In this document: positions 8,969 to 35,154 of the stretch, in pieces
Layout: each line of letters opens with the position of its first letter
How positions within the stretch are numbered: the first letter of the stretch is position 1
Assembly (NCBI GenBank): GCA_001871165.1
Contig: MNUT01000027.1
Location: 1-48,681, forward strand
Reading direction: 5' to 3'
Origin: Candidatus Falkowbacteria bacterium CG1_02_37_21
GTDB lineage: Bacteria > Patescibacteriota > Patescibacteriia > Patescibacteriales > UBA12465
Length of the DNA stretch: 48,681 bases
Notes under the pieces: generated by a model
Told to the model about the DNA's origin: nothing
Databases searched by the model: none
What the model saw: only the letters and a program-made list of their open reading frames with translations
Translations under genes and position numbers: made by a program

Positions 8969-9379
8969 TTAGCCATGAGATGGCGATGTTATTTTATCGC
9001 CGATTACCCAACAATATTTTTTGAATTTGTTGCGGCTGTTTAATATTGTGGCCAGTTCTTCGTGAGATACGCAGTCCCCGGCTATTTCTATTAGATATTT
9101 TTTATTTTCTTTTATCTCAGAAATAAAAACCTCTTTATCTATCTTATTAGACAATAGACCGTCCGGATTAATAAATTTAATTAGCTGATTTCCCGTGAAG
9201 ATTAGTCTTTTTGGTTTGCCGGGATTGATGAGTTTTATAAATTCCTCATCAGTTGTATTGCTTAGTTTTAATAAAAAAATTTTTGTATCCCCGTCCTCAA
9301 GGATTAACTCAAGTATTGGAGTAGTAAAGATTTTTTTAATAAAATTAATGACAGATAAAAAATAATTTTTTGTTCGCAT
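8969..9379 (-). CDS. Protein of unknown function, isolated between hpf and secA
   Basis: This is a 136-residue protein that I do not recognise. It has no clear signal peptide or membrane helix; the start is basic (MRTKNYFLSVINFIKKIF), followed by alternating beta-like hydrophobic stretches (LELILEDGDTKIFLLKL, KRLIFTG, KKYLIEIAGD) and a C-terminal part with two cysteines (CVSHEE and YCWVIGD). It runs against both neighbours, has its own strong promoter at 9436-9464 and its own terminator, so it is an independent unit. Its codon use looks more AT-rich than that of the flanking core genes. A small regulatory or toxin/immunity-type protein is conceivable, but nothing in the sequence decides it. 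Confidence 0.65.
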   Translation of the reverse strand: MRTKNYFLSVINFIKKIFTTPILELILEDGDTKIFLLKLSNTTDEEFIKLINPGKPKRLIFTGNQLIKFINPDGLLSNKIDKEVFISEIKENKKYLIEIAGDCVSHEELATILNSRNKFKKYCWVIGDKITSPSHG

Positions 9380-9435
9380 AGCTTGACCTCGGTTATTTGT
9401 GAATGTTAATTGGAAATGTTCTATTTAATGTTGCT

Positions 9436-9464
9436 AACATATCACGTTAATCGTTATGTGTCAA
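9436..9464 (-). promoter_or_regulatory. Strong sigma-70-type promoter of the unknown gene 8969-9379
   Basis: On the minus strand a perfect -35 TTGACA (9464-9459), a 17-base spacer and an extended -10 TGA-TATGTT (hexamer 9441-9436) drive the gene starting at 9379, leaving a leader of about 50 bases. Confidence 0.7.
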
Positions 9465-9491
9465 TAGCTTTATTTATTAAACAATCCGTAT

Positions 9492-9497
9492 TATACT
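9492..9497 (+). promoter_or_regulatory. Possible -10 box (TATACT) upstream of secA
   Basis: TATACT lies about 72 bases before the secA ATG in the 189-base divergent gap. The -35 position 17 bases upstream (TTTATT) is a weak match, so this is only a candidate. No hairpin or riboswitch-like structure is evident in the leader. Confidence 0.3.
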
Positions 9498-9568
9498 AAG
9501 CTTAGAGCTAAAATCATATTTAAGCTTGTTTGTTTTTATATAAAATTAGGTAAATTCAGTAAATAGTT

Positions 9569-12358
9569 ATGAATATTTTTGACTTTTTTGGCGATGCCAA
9601 TGAAAAAATTATAAAATCTCTACATCCCCTGACGCTCAAGGTTGATGGTTTTGAGGCGGAAATTAAGAAATTATCGGACGATGAGCTGAAAAATAAGACA
9701 GCGGAATTCAGGGATCGTCTGTCTAGGGGCGAAACTTTAGATGATTTATTACCGGAAGCTTTTGCGACTATGCGTGAAGCGGCTTGGCGTATTCTTAAAC
9801 AGCGACATTTTGATGTTCAATTAATTGGTGGCATTGTCTTGCACCGCGGGCAAATCGCGGAAATGAAAACTGGTGAAGGAAAAACCTTGGTAGCCACTTT
9901 GCCCCTTTATTTAAATGCTTTAGCCGGTAAGGGTGCACACTTGGTAACAGTGAATGATTACTTGTCACGTTTGGGAGCTGGTTGGATGGCCCCGGTTTTT
10001 CACGCCTTGGGAATGTCCACCGGAGTTATTGTTCATGACAATGCTTATGTTTATGATCCGGAACATAATGACGAGACTCAGTATGATAAACGCTTACAGC
10101 ATTTTCGTCGGATTCCTCGTCAAGAAGCTTATCTTTGTGATGTCACTTATGGTACCAACAATGAATTTGGTTTTGATTATTTGCGCGACAATATGGTCTA
10201 TTCTCTAGATCAAGCCGTCCAGCGTCCGCTTTATTATGCCATTGTTGATGAAATTGATTCTATTTTAATTGATGAAGCTCGTACCCCTTTGATTATTAGT
10301 GCGCCGGCGGAAGAATCTACCGATAAGTATTTTAAATTTGCGCAGATTGTCAGTCAGTTGAATGAACAGGATGACTATAATATTGACGAGAAAATGAAAG
10401 CTGCCACTTTAACTGAAGGAGGAATTAATAAAGTGGAGAAAATACTCGGTCTGGGTAATATTTATGTGGAAGCTGGTATTAAAGAAGTTCATCACTTAGA
10501 AGCGGCTCTTAAAGCTCGCGTTTTGTTTAAGAAAGATAAAGATTATGTAGTTAAGGACGGCGAGATTGTGATTGTGGATGAATTTACTGGTCGCATGATG
10601 CCGGGTCGTCGTTATAGCGAGGGCTTACATCAGGCGATTGAAGCTAAGGAAGGCGTGAAGGTTCAGAAAGAATCGCGGACCATGGCGACTATTACTTTTC
10701 AGAATTTGTTTCGTCTCTATACTAAATTATCTGGTATGACCGGTACGGCGGCTACGGAAGCGGAAGAATTTCATAAGATTTATAATTTGGAAACTATTAT
10801 TATTCCGACCAATAAACCTAATGACAGAAAAGATTTGAATGATTTAATTTATCGCACGGAAGAAGATAAGTTTTTAGCAGTGATTCGTGATATTAAGGAG
10901 CGGAGTGCTAAAGGCCAGCCGGTTTTAGTTGGTACAATTTCCATTGAGAAAAATGAAGTTTTGGCTGAACTGATGGAACGGGAAGGTTTGCGTCCGCAGA
11001 TGTTGAATGCTAAAAACCATCAAAGGGAAGCGGAAATTATTGCTCAGGCGGGACGAAAAGGGGCGGTTACTTTAGCGACTAATATGGCCGGCCGTGGTGT
11101 TGACATTATTTTAGGCGGTAATCCACCTGTAGAAGAGGAACAAGCGGAAATTAGAGCTGCGGGGGGCTTACACGTTGTTGGTACCGAGCGACACGAATCA
11201 CGTCGTATTGATAATCAGTTGCGAGGTCGCGCCGGTCGTCAGGGTGATCCCGGTTCTTCGCAGTTTTATGTTTCCACTGATGATGATTTAATGCGTATTT
11301 TTGGTGGCGATAGGATGAAGTCCTTGATGTCTACCTTGCAGGTGCCGGATGATATGCCAATTGAAAATAAAATGATTTCTAAATCTATTGAATCCGCCCA
11401 GAAAAAAGTGGAAGGAAATAATTTTGATATTAGAAAACATTTGGTGGAATATGATGACGTTATTAATAAGCATCGCATGGCGATTTATAAATTACGTCGA
11501 GAAATTTTAGAAACTTCGGAACAGGATGATACTATTGTGTTGGGTCAAGTAGTAGAAGAAAAAGCTCAAGAGCCGGTAGAAAAAGATAAAGCCATTGCGG
11601 AAAATAACACGGAGCCAGCTAATCGCAGTTTAGCGGAGATTGTTTTGGATATGGTGCGGGAGGAAATAACTAATGTGGTTAGTTTTCATAGCGCCGCCGA
11701 TCGACCTAGTGACTGGAATTTCAAAGAAATAGCAGAAACTATGCGAACGATTTGGACTACTAGTCCAGACTTGGAAGTTAAATTAAAAGAATTTGGTGAG
11801 AGCCCTAAGGCCCTAGAAGTTATTAAGAAAGATATTATTGATTATTTAGTGACGCTGGCTAAAGAAAAGTATGATACTCTGTCGGCTAGCTTTAAAGCCG
11901 CTAACTTAGAGTTTAAAGAAGTAGAAAAAGGAATCTTAATTCGTTCTATTGATCAGTTGTGGGTGGAACATTTAGAGACTGTGGACTATCTTCGTCGTGG
12001 TATTGGTTTGCGCGGTTACGGTCAGCGTAATCCTTTAGTGGAATATAAAAAAGAAGCTTTCCGTTTATACCGTGAACTTAATGGCCTGATTCATAAACAG
12101 GTGGTTTACTCTATTTATAAAACCGGTGACGCTTTAGTGATGGCCAAAGAACAGGAAATAAAATCTTTCGCTGAAGCTCCAGTAGAAAAATTAAATTTCA
12201 GTGGCGCCGTTAAGGAAATGCATAAGGAAGCGGCCGGACGCAATACCGTTGATCTCGTCCATGAAAAAGTGAAAGATGAAAGCGGCGAAAAAGTGGGTCG
12301 CAACGACCCTTGCCCTTGTGGTAGCGGTAAAAAATTTAAGCGCTGTCATGGCGCGTGA
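9569..12358 (+). CDS. secA: Preprotein translocase ATPase SecA
   Basis: SecA drives secretory proteins through SecYEG. The 929-residue protein has the full family layout: Walker A TGEGKT (about residue 100), DEID and the ILIDEARTPLIIS stretch (about 225-245), TGRMMPGRRYSEGLHQAIEAKE (split across about 338-358), the second nucleotide fold with TNMAGRGVDI and RRIDNQLRGRAGRQGDPG, and the C-terminal SEC-C zinc motif CPCGSGKKFKRCH at the very end. A Glu/Lys-rich insertion of about 35 residues (near 650-690) interrupts the helical scaffold region. Monocistronic placement is suggested by a 189-base upstream gap and a long hairpin just after the stop. It serves the secreted protease, lipoproteins and repeat protein seen in this window. 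Confidence 0.98.
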   Translation: MNIFDFFGDANEKIIKSLHPLTLKVDGFEAEIKKLSDDELKNKTAEFRDRLSRGETLDDLLPEAFATMREAAWRILKQRHFDVQLIGGIVLHRGQIAEMKTGEGKTLVATLPLYLNALAGKGAHLVTVNDYLSRLGAGWMAPVFHALGMSTGVIVHDNAYVYDPEHNDETQYDKRLQHFRRIPRQEAYLCDVTYGTNNEFGFDYLRDNMVYSLDQAVQRPLYYAIVDEIDSILIDEARTPLIISAPAEESTDKYFKFAQIVSQLNEQDDYNIDEKMKAATLTEGGINKVEKILGLGNIYVEAGIKEVHHLEAALKARVLFKKDKDYVVKDGEIVIVDEFTGRMMPGRRYSEGLHQAIEAKEGVKVQKESRTMATITFQNLFRLYTKLSGMTGTAATEAEEFHKIYNLETIIIPTNKPNDRKDLNDLIYRTEEDKFLAVIRDIKERSAKGQPVLVGTISIEKNEVLAELMEREGLRPQMLNAKNHQREAEIIAQAGRKGAVTLATNMAGRGVDIILGGNPPVEEEQAEIRAAGGLHVVGTERHESRRIDNQLRGRAGRQGDPGSSQFYVSTDDDLMRIFGGDRMKSLMSTLQVPDDMPIENKMISKSIESAQKKVEGNNFDIRKHLVEYDDVINKHRMAIYKLRREILETSEQDDTIVLGQVVEEKAQEPVEKDKAIAENNTEPANRSLAEIVLDMVREEITNVVSFHSAADRPSDWNFKEIAETMRTIWTTSPDLEVKLKEFGESPKALEVIKKDIIDYLVTLAKEKYDTLSASFKAANLEFKEVEKGILIRSIDQLWVEHLETVDYLRRGIGLRGYGQRNPLVEYKKEAFRLYRELNGLIHKQVVYSIYKTGDALVMAKEQEIKSFAEAPVEKLNFSGAVKEMHKEAAGRNTVDLVHEKVKDESGEKVGRNDPCPCGSGKKFKRCHGA

Positions 12359-12417
12359 AATTGCTTCGCTCGCCTCAGACGCAAGCTCCGCTTGCGCCTG
12401 TAGGCTCGCTAGCAATT
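12359..12417. other. Long GC-rich hairpin after secA, possible terminator or palindromic repeat element
   Basis: An inner perfect stem CGCAAGC (12380-12386) / GCTTGCG (12390-12396) with a three-base loop is enclosed by imperfect outer arms beginning AATTGC and ending GCAATT. The palindrome of about 59 bases starts directly after the secA stop. It lacks a T-tract, so a classical intrinsic terminator is not certain; a REP-like element is the alternative. Confidence 0.6.
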
Positions 12418-12479
12418 ATAATAAGTGTTGTGGGAAGTAAAGCTTGTAGAATAAAGTCTATTTTAGGTTATAATTGAAT

Positions 12480-12508
12480 TTGACAATCGTCTAATATTCG
12501 TCTATAAT
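12480..12508 (+). promoter_or_regulatory. Full consensus sigma-70-type promoter of the Fic gene
   Basis: TTGACA (12480-12485), 17 bases, TATAAT (12503-12508). Both boxes match consensus exactly, and the transcript would have a leader of about 22 bases before the ATG at 12538. Such a strong promoter suggests that the gene is held down by a repressor, probably through the direct repeats that overlap it. Confidence 0.8.
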
Positions 12509-12515
12509 GTGTCTA
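12487..12515 (+). repeat. Three direct repeats (TCGTCTA type) at 11-base period over the Fic promoter, operator-like
   Basis: TCGTCTA occurs at 12487-12493 and 12498-12504, with a third variant GTGTCTA at 12509-12515. The 11-base period is one helical turn, so all copies face the same side of the DNA. The array covers the spacer, the -10 box and the expected transcription start. Confidence 0.55.
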
Positions 12516-12537
12516 TAAGCACTAAGTAGATAATCTT

Positions 12538-13569
12538 ATGTTTAAGCCTAAATATACAATAACTAACACACTTTTGGGGAATATTAAACGCATAGCGGAA
12601 ATTGTTACTGATCTTAATAGCCGCAGTTTTCCCAAGCTTGTGCTCTTGGAAATGGAACGTCGCGCTCGGGAAATATCCGCCTATTCTTCTACTAGCATTG
12701 AAGGCAATCCTTTACCGTTAACGGATGTAAAAAGAATTCTGAAAAATAGACCAGAATATGTACGCGACTCCGAGAAAGAAGTGTTGAATTATAATAAGGC
12801 TCTAATAGAATTGAATGAACTGATAAATACGGAAAAAATTTCTTTTGACAACAATTATTTGGAAAAAATTCACAAAATAGTTATTGATGGTCTGATTGAA
12901 AAAAATCGTGCGGGCCATATTCGTCAGGAACCGGTTTTTGTTAATGATCCGAGTGCCGGGAAAACTATATATTGGCCACCCGATGAGCAAGACGTGATAT
13001 CTTTGCTTAATGACTTGTGGGAATTTTTGGAAAAAAATAAACAATCAATCGATCCTTTGATTTTGGCCGGTATTTTTCATAAACAGTTTGTGATTGTTCA
13101 TCCGTTTATTGATGGTAACGGTCGTACGGCACGATTGGCGACTAAAGTGTTGTTGGCAAAAATGGGCGTGAATACCTTTAATTTGTTCAGTTTTGAGAAT
13201 TATTATAATCAGAATGTTGCGCGTTATTTTAAGGAAGTCGGCCTGTTGGGTAATTATTATGACCTAAAAGATAAGGTTGATTTTACTGCTTGGCTGGAAT
13301 ATTTCACGGACGGAATTATTGATGAATTATTGCGGGTAGAAAAAGAGTTGGAGAAAGAAGCGGTTAATCCTGATACAGCACTGAAAGAATATCATCAAAA
13401 GATGATTAATTTTATTAAAGAAAAAGGTTTTATTACCGACAAGGATTATTCTAAGTTGACTGCTCGCGCTAAGCCGACCAGAAATTTAGATTTCAGAAAA
13501 CTTATTGACCTAGGAATTATTATCAAGATTGGTAAAGGCAAGGCGACTTATTATAAATTGCAATTATAA
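12538..13569 (+). CDS. Fic-domain protein AMPylator with N-terminal inhibitory motif and C-terminal winged-helix-like domain
   Basis: Fic enzymes transfer AMP (or another nucleotide group) from NTPs to hydroxyl side chains of target proteins. In this 343-residue protein the active site is intact: HPFIDGNGRTAR at 188-199, with catalytic His188. The class II N-terminal inhibitory motif (S/T)xxxE(G/N) is present as SSTSIEGN, with Glu55 expected to block the gamma-phosphate. The C-terminal 60 residues (YHQKMINFIKEKGFITDKDYSKL and on) look like a winged helix, as in Fic proteins that may bind DNA. It has its own consensus promoter with direct repeats, so autoregulation is plausible (inference). 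No antitoxin gene is adjacent; inhibition appears to be in cis. Confidence 0.93.
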   Translation: MFKPKYTITNTLLGNIKRIAEIVTDLNSRSFPKLVLLEMERRAREISAYSSTSIEGNPLPLTDVKRILKNRPEYVRDSEKEVLNYNKALIELNELINTEKISFDNNYLEKIHKIVIDGLIEKNRAGHIRQEPVFVNDPSAGKTIYWPPDEQDVISLLNDLWEFLEKNKQSIDPLILAGIFHKQFVIVHPFIDGNGRTARLATKVLLAKMGVNTFNLFSFENYYNQNVARYFKEVGLLGNYYDLKDKVDFTAWLEYFTDGIIDELLRVEKELEKEAVNPDTALKEYHQKMINFIKEKGFITDKDYSKLTARAKPTRNLDFRKLIDLGIIIKIGKGKATYYKLQL

Positions 13570-34898: not shown

Positions 34899-34926
34899 AA
34901 ATAGGCCTTAAATAGGCTCTATTTCT
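34899..34926 (+). terminator. Hairpin after the lipoprotein gene
   Basis: AAATAG-GCCT (34899-34908) pairs with AGGC-(T)-CTATTT (34914-34924) with a single bulged T and a five-base loop. The T-run after it is short (TTTCTT), so it is only a moderate terminator. Confidence 0.5.
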
Positions 34927-34934
34927 TACTACCT

Positions 34935-35123
34935 CGTGCTAGCACGATGTTGCGATGGGGGATTTGAACTAGTTGGAAGCGAGACACGAGAGACGGCGGA
35001 AGCCGGAGCGAGTGGACGAGCGTCGGACGAAGCTCCGGGGGAGCTTTGGACGCCAACTTTGGACAAGTGAGCTCCGCCCGTTAGGGGGCGGAGCGAGCGC
35101 GCAAATCCCCGCCTTCGCCACCA
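34935..35123. other. GC-rich structured non-coding element in a 327-base gene-free gap; ends resemble tRNA 3' halves
   Basis: The gap 34891-35217 holds no open reading frame that I would call a gene. Its core is clearly more GC-rich than the surroundings and full of inverted repeats: the palindrome CGTGCTAGCACG (34935-34946), CCGGAGC/GCTCCGG (35003-35009 and 35032-35038), GCTCCGCCC/GGGCGGAGC (35071-35079 and 35086-35094), and AGTTGG/CCAACT (34971-34976 and 35053-35058). The two ends are imperfect inverted repeats of each other (TTGCGATGGGGGATTTG at 34950-34966 against the complement of the stretch ending TTCGCCA near 35121), and each looks like a tRNA T-arm plus acceptor 3' half. It reads as a structured RNA, a tRNA-derived remnant or a MITE-like element. 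It lies just before the promoter of the DUF5320 gene. Confidence 0.6.
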
Positions 35124-35125
35124 AT

Positions 35126-35154
35126 TTGACTTAATATAGTTATGGGTATATACT
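35126..35154 (+). promoter_or_regulatory. Promoter of the DUF5320 gene group
   Basis: TTGACT (35126-35131), 17 bases, TATACT (35149-35154). The -10 lies inside a 20-base near-perfect palindrome. The leader to the ATG at 35218 is about 57 bases. Confidence 0.7.

Follow-up and report, generated by a model that had tools for sequence, protein, structure and literature searches.

Behind the tRNA genes of Patescibacteria, Candidatus Falkowbacteria included, sits what appears from sequence comparison to be a hitherto undescribed family of mobile elements that are folded and non-coding and whose ends are derived from the neighbouring tRNA gene: on the left an 11-nt inverted copy of its T-loop, on the right a 15-nt direct copy of its 3′ end. 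With something close to an even chance of being right, we propose that each element is a non-coding integration cassette of about 200 bp, or folded recombination site, that would use the inverted copy as a guide and be inserted in the T-loop (between tRNA positions 58 and 59) by a recombinase supplied in trans. Should the guide direct insertion, base pairing would be steering DNA integration in a new way; failing that, the element still marks gene-cassette arrays and allows tRNA-anchored gene capture in this group to be searched for with a single covariance model. How Patescibacteria, with their tiny genomes, acquire genes is poorly known; what emerges here is a recurrent tRNA-gene platform that gathers single genes and, with it, a non-coding element that mirrors its host tRNA at the ends.

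The window, meaning the whole 48,681-nt stretch analysed (contig C14 of the 0.70-Mb genome G000), holds a copy at 34958-35110 on the plus strand, a non-coding unit of the family's ~200-bp kind. Its GC content is 0.63-0.64 vs 0.39 for the whole window, and no second 166-nt stretch in the window equals that richness. It beats dinucleotide shuffles in folding on both strands (z -3.4 and -3.0), and the open reading frames listed over it overlap one another and are short, at 44-53 aa, which bears out the first-pass annotation of a GC-rich, structured, non-coding element, although the element proper starts at about 34958, to the right of the 34935 given there. The T-loop-like sequence noted at both ends without a complete tRNA is likewise real: the right end contains AAATCCCCGCCTTCGCCACCA, the left end, on the minus strand, GTTCAAATCCCCC, and ARAGORN found zero tRNAs over the window. 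Rfam gave no match to the element, even with the local stretch tried at E up to 1. The parts of this copy and its flanks are as follows.

34958..35110, plus strand: element proper, comprising guide, folded core and the first bases of the right tRNA-3′-end copy (cmsearch with covariance model R1, 159 bits, E 1.6e-46, model positions 1-154 of 154; 21-sequence alignment A1).
34959..34969, plus strand: guide GGGATTTGAAC, the reverse complement of T-loop positions 53-63 (GTTCAAATCCC), from sequence; the same relation to the neighbouring tRNA holds in 59 tRNA-adjacent copies.
34971..35055, plus strand: core domain, closed by an AGTT/AACT stem (covarying helices 1-3 of A1 and 1-4 of the larger alignment A2).
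34995-35004, plus strand: cap GGC-GGAA-GCC of a helix with tandem G.A motifs, inside the core domain.
35030-35046, plus strand: hairpin AAGCTCC/GGAGCTT, inside the core domain.
35071..35094, plus strand: 3′ hairpin GCTCCGCCC/GGGCGGAGC, flanked by a TGAG/CGAG tandem G.A motif (covarying helix 4 of A1, helix 5 of A2).
35105..35123, plus strand: right tRNA-3′-end-like segment ATCCCCGCCTTCGCCACCA, in normal copies the exact tRNA 59-73 (sequence; profile over 50 copies).
34925..34957, minus strand: displaced left flank, a degenerate tRNA-Ser 3′ end plus the conserved tRNA-Ser 3′ flank CGCAACATCGTGCTAGCACGAGG (100% matches of 25-30 nt in relatives).
35126..35154, plus strand: promoter-like site TTGACT-17-TATACT, just behind the element and ahead of a DUF5320 gene (consensus scan, 2 found vs 1.0 expected by chance).

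The window copy has the full core, the guide and the right tRNA-like end, but lacks an upstream tRNA, and none of the 35 tRNAs found in its own genome has the 3′ end of its right segment. The usual tRNA, terminator and linker are replaced by the left flank, whose sequence lies directly behind tRNA-Ser at loci L024, L025, L027 and L036. This copy is evidently displaced and probably inactive, and its inverted left flank is the leftover that one would expect from an inversion between the tRNA-Ser T-loop and the guide. The genes downstream are DUF5320 and DUF134; as a real promoter, the site ahead of them is weak on its own. A near-palindrome, ACCTCGTGCTAGCACGATGT, is conserved behind tRNA-Ser (34930-34949 in the window, and the same four loci). 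It may be a serine-recombinase attachment site, since G000 (contigs C20 and C21) and G002 have genes for large serine recombinases close to tRNA-Ser.

The element is not alone in its genome. BLAST found three more copies there, one of them 97% identical over 87 nt, and R1, a covariance model built from A1 (21 full copies), raised the count to about ten (9-11), at least eight of them additional to the window copy. BLAST among relatives gave copies in 21 of 60, R1 in 25 of 39 family genomes (up to 12 per genome), and a phylum-wide draw searched with R1 yielded copies in 15 of 380 genomes, other classes included. Both sides change in 30 of the 46 base pairs proposed in A1, where compensatory cells number 125 vs 37 ± 5 when shuffled, a value that 0 of 500 shuffles reached. 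A2, whose 89 copies were fitted to the model and which is hence biased towards the proposed fold, has 922 such cells vs 298 ± 15, and the signal is lost when the partner is slid by one column. The helices carry tandem G.A motifs that hardly vary, and a C(GGAA)G loop. The core is under selection, because compensatory change conserves it across many genomes and in other classes.

These results bear out part of what the first-pass annotation had offered as alternatives, either a mobile palindromic element of tRNA origin or a structured RNA not yet described. The lack of a second copy, which it had named among its grounds for refutation, does not apply. The compensatory substitutions it proposed to look for exist, far above shuffles; neither Rfam nor a tRNA search assigns the element to a known RNA class; and "undescribed" and "structured" both gain support, the choice between RNA and single-stranded DNA leaning to DNA. 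Mobility is supported as well. Derivation from tRNA holds for the ends and fails for the ~130-nt core, in which no relation to tRNA was detectable, and several covarying hairpins take the place of a simple palindrome. A search of the open-access literature, with subscription papers and preprints outside its scope, found no description of the element.

Of 97 copies, 59 follow a complete tRNA gene in the same orientation at a distance of up to 80 nt, and none has one there on the opposite strand; the hosts span 19 tRNA species, including Glu, Gly, Gln, Ser, His, Trp, Asp, Asn, Val, Ala, Lys, Tyr and Met. The normal order is an intact tRNA, a near-perfect, bidirectional palindromic terminator that begins where the tRNA ends, a short linker hairpin, the 11-nt guide, the core and the copy of tRNA 59-73. 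In each case the guide is complementary, in reverse, to positions 53-63 of its own neighbouring tRNA, and the match drops to 2% at position 52 and 49% at position 64. At position 59, the most variable between tRNAs within the segment, 57 of 59 guides match (97%; A 21/21, C 4/4, G 3/3, T 29/31) vs 39% with shuffled neighbours. The right copy agrees with its own tRNA at 94-100% over most of positions 59-73 (84% at 71, 92% at 60); where tRNAs differ from one another, shuffling the neighbours lowers the agreement to 31-48%. Since guide and right copy both match their own tRNA, the host tRNA sets the ends, whereas the core is specific to the family. The right repeat ends with the tRNA, a profile of 50 copies giving no clear signal further on; an extended target-site duplication, from a staggered cut past the tRNA, was rejected on this ground.

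A direct repeat of 59-73 is also what tRNA-site integrases leave, and the elements could be passive left-overs: attachment arms of ordinary tRNA-integrating islands, their inverted repeats perfected by template switching (quasi-palindrome correction) and their guide functionless. Tandem copies and islands between copies do occur, perfect palindromes are common here, and inverted copies sometimes reach into the acceptor stem (L189, L230), all of which would suit such an origin. We nonetheless consider it quite unlikely: a core maintained by compensatory change in many genomes and in other classes points to selection, and the guide match is sharp-edged at 53 and 63, with no gradual decay.

Several patterns support mobility of the family, as judged from genome comparison. 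Orthologous tRNA genes may be filled or empty (for tRNA-His, the G000 gene is filled and the G002 gene empty; for tRNA-Gly-gcc, the reverse), near-identical cores stand behind different tRNAs with altered ends, identical units occur in tandem (G000, contigs C8 and C10), and contig ends frequently fall at element copies. Separately, an island that bears an integrase lies at tRNA-Gly-gcc (G000:C13:13551-20942) and has apparently displaced an older element copy, now 7 kb from its tRNA.

In the scheme we favour, the sense strand of the element would fold as single-stranded DNA, its guide would pair with the T-loop of a target tRNA gene across the 58/59 junction and thereby direct insertion, and a recombinase acting in trans, presumably of the tyrosine type, would join the element there; the tRNA would stay whole because positions 59-73 are present twice. 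After a jump, the guide would be re-copied or corrected from the new target. The scheme builds on what the copies display (their anatomy and orientation, a fold that covaries, a guide and a repeat specific to each tRNA, patchy and tandem occurrence, and co-residence with integrase-less gene cassettes) and adds an enzyme, a strand and a chemistry of insertion that we infer. Against it, the guide is inverted relative to the tRNA, and ordinary tyrosine-recombinase attachment sites need no such thing; recombination alone cannot explain how guide, left 59-73 and right 59-73 all match the new tRNA; G002 also carries one large serine recombinase; and the better fold of the sense strand and its G.A motifs suit RNA equally. 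Guide-directed DNA integration in the full sense, whereby the 11-nt guide pairs across the insertion point, accepts any matching tRNA T-loop and is rewritten from its target, alongside integrase-less cassettes sharing the anchor, is put forward as a possibility well short of an even chance.

Covariation shows one strand to be folded, and the tRNA-sense strand folds better in 74 of 78 copies with RNA parameters and in 75 of 78 with DNA parameters. Hairpins form in 33 of 91 linkers vs 15 in shuffles, and 20 of the 33 have C(GNA)G or C(GNNA)G loops, including GTTA, GCTA and GTA, which are not the GNRA loops of RNA; loops of the GNA/GNNA type are exceptionally stable in DNA. Tandem G.A pairs and the GGAA loop are classic RNA motifs. 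We lean towards single-stranded DNA rather than RNA, because the bidirectional terminator parts the element from its tRNA and because the linker loops are non-GNRA. The opposing view is of a structured RNA, transcribed by terminator read-through or from its own promoter, whose 11-nt antisense T-loop segment binds unfolded tRNA, for example controlling its maturation. Massive covariation and numerous symmetric tandem G.A motifs together with a C(GGAA)G loop, all typical of RNA, speak for it, as does a strand that is always that of the tRNA. However, tRNA and element are separated by a bidirectional terminator that is nearly perfect, linker loops are mostly non-GNRA, and the T-loop is hidden in folded tRNA; moreover, most tRNAs and many related genomes are without the element and orthologous tRNAs differ in it, which would be odd for a tRNA regulator. 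We regard such an RNA as unlikely.

RNA might instead be the vehicle, in a retro element whose RNA finds the tRNA gene through its guide, much as the internal guide of group I introns spans both exons, and is copied into DNA at that gene. In reaching from -6 to +5 across the insertion point, the guide resembles the combined P1 and P10 of group I introns, and target-matched ends fit copying at the target. Yet the tRNA is always intact, leaving nothing to splice, Rfam gave no intron match, and the ~130-nt core is smaller than any group I intron known; we know of none that small. A search for reverse transcriptase drew a blank in G002, G008, G016 and G026, each of which has several element copies, a further difference from retroelements and retrons, and this route strikes us as decidedly improbable. 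The P1/P10-like layout is equally the one argument for a group I or II intron or another self-splicing tRNA insertion, an idea we find barely credible: the upstream tRNA is complete, and Rfam, negative at E up to 1, recognised no conserved P3-P7 core. A group I intron as a required splicing element is refuted, the host tRNA never being interrupted.

As to an enzyme for the DNA scheme, closed G002 and G008 have one tyrosine recombinase each, that of G002 being Xer-like and 318 aa long (named from sequence by eye). Y1 transposase was not found in G000, G002, G006 or G008, Cas1 was absent across 39 genomes, and one large serine recombinase was found in G002 and none in G008. Reverse transcriptase, Y1, Cas1 and serine recombinase were rejected as helpers because they are not present in all carriers. 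With these alternatives missing from G002 and/or G008, the Xer-like protein would be the only shared candidate, an argument from absence in genomes that are mostly drafts. The genome of the window itself has two short (~337 aa) reverse transcriptase genes, at G000:C3:1715-2326 and G000:C7:11886-12497.

Cassette arrays form a larger system than the element itself. Behind tRNA-Ser-cga in G006 follow an element, a gene, a site, a HAD-like gene, a site, a gene, a site and a second element (genes named by eye). The sites, of which CCGTTCCAACTACGTCCCGTCCTCTCCGC is one, resemble tRNA-Ser 3′ ends whose T-loop is altered, and similar ones lie behind tRNA-Ser-gga and tRNA-Gln-ttg in closed G002. Repeated ends such as GTTCCAACTACGTCCC...CTCTCCGC in the tRNA-Ser and tRNA-Gln arrays are candidate recombination sites. 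Two elements behind tRNA-Gln in G008, 99% identical over 238 nt, bracket 5.9 kb of cargo (ArsR and MarR regulators, a DsbD-like protein and an FtsX-type permease). No integrase was seen in these stretches of G006, G002 and G008. Copies without a tRNA often come after a cassette site, as though cassettes that arrived later had taken the place beside the tRNA.

Integrase-less, tRNA-anchored arrays of mostly one-gene cassettes were seen at L162 3900-7100 (G006), L163 5850-10400, L160 5000-11300, L161 3000-17000 and G002:C1:450700-453916, with cassette ends resembling GTTCCAACTACGTCC followed by the 3′ end of the host tRNA. L161 also has, at 9105-13554, two metal (copper-type) P-type ATPase-like genes between two element copies at tRNA-Ser, with thiol/disulfide proteins near them. 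A genome-wide scan for the cassette-end motif at 3 mismatches gave 10 matches in G002 and 10 in the shuffled genome, no excess; only in-array matches at 2 mismatches with a tRNA-like tail are meaningful.

Among known systems, integrons come close: their arrays too consist mostly of one-gene cassettes without their own recombinase at a fixed anchor, and attC is likewise a non-coding site that folds as a single strand and conserves structure over sequence. The anchor here, however, is many kinds of tRNA gene rather than attI, the element is ~200 bp with a multi-helix core and ends matched to the host tRNA, and no IntI-type integrase was identified in the tyrosine-recombinase search, which gave the Xer-like protein alone in closed G002. 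Islands that tyrosine integrases insert at tRNA genes (T-loop or 3′-end sublocation) share the direct repeat from T-loop to tRNA 3′ end and the intact tRNA, whereas the element has no integrase gene, measures only ~200 bp, carries an inverted T-loop copy matched per tRNA, and spreads one core family over 19 tRNA species. Tycheposons of Prochlorococcus and other tRNA-anchored cargo islands are similar in being small tRNA-site cargo islands, some without mobility genes, but are not known to have a guide or a folded 200-bp core. REP/REPIN and IS200/IS605 also involve non-coding hairpin elements mobilised in trans as a single strand, and IS200/IS605 use base-pairing guide sequences; the present fold is much larger, its 11-nt guide is matched to the target, its targets are tRNA T-loops only, and Y1 transposase was not found in most carriers. 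Casposons differ by their Cas1-type integrase. Integration at tRNA sites and cassette arrays are known kinds of system; we know of no family that joins an 11-nt tRNA-matched mirror guide to a covarying, non-coding core that changes tRNA hosts.

A second, apparently unrelated core type, a GTGCACTTGTGCAC-like palindrome, occupies the same place behind tRNAs: in G000 behind tRNA-Asp (C19, 13551) and tRNA-Ala-ggc (C11, 7991), in G002 behind tRNA-Ser-gct (526830), and at L161 3208 and 16777.
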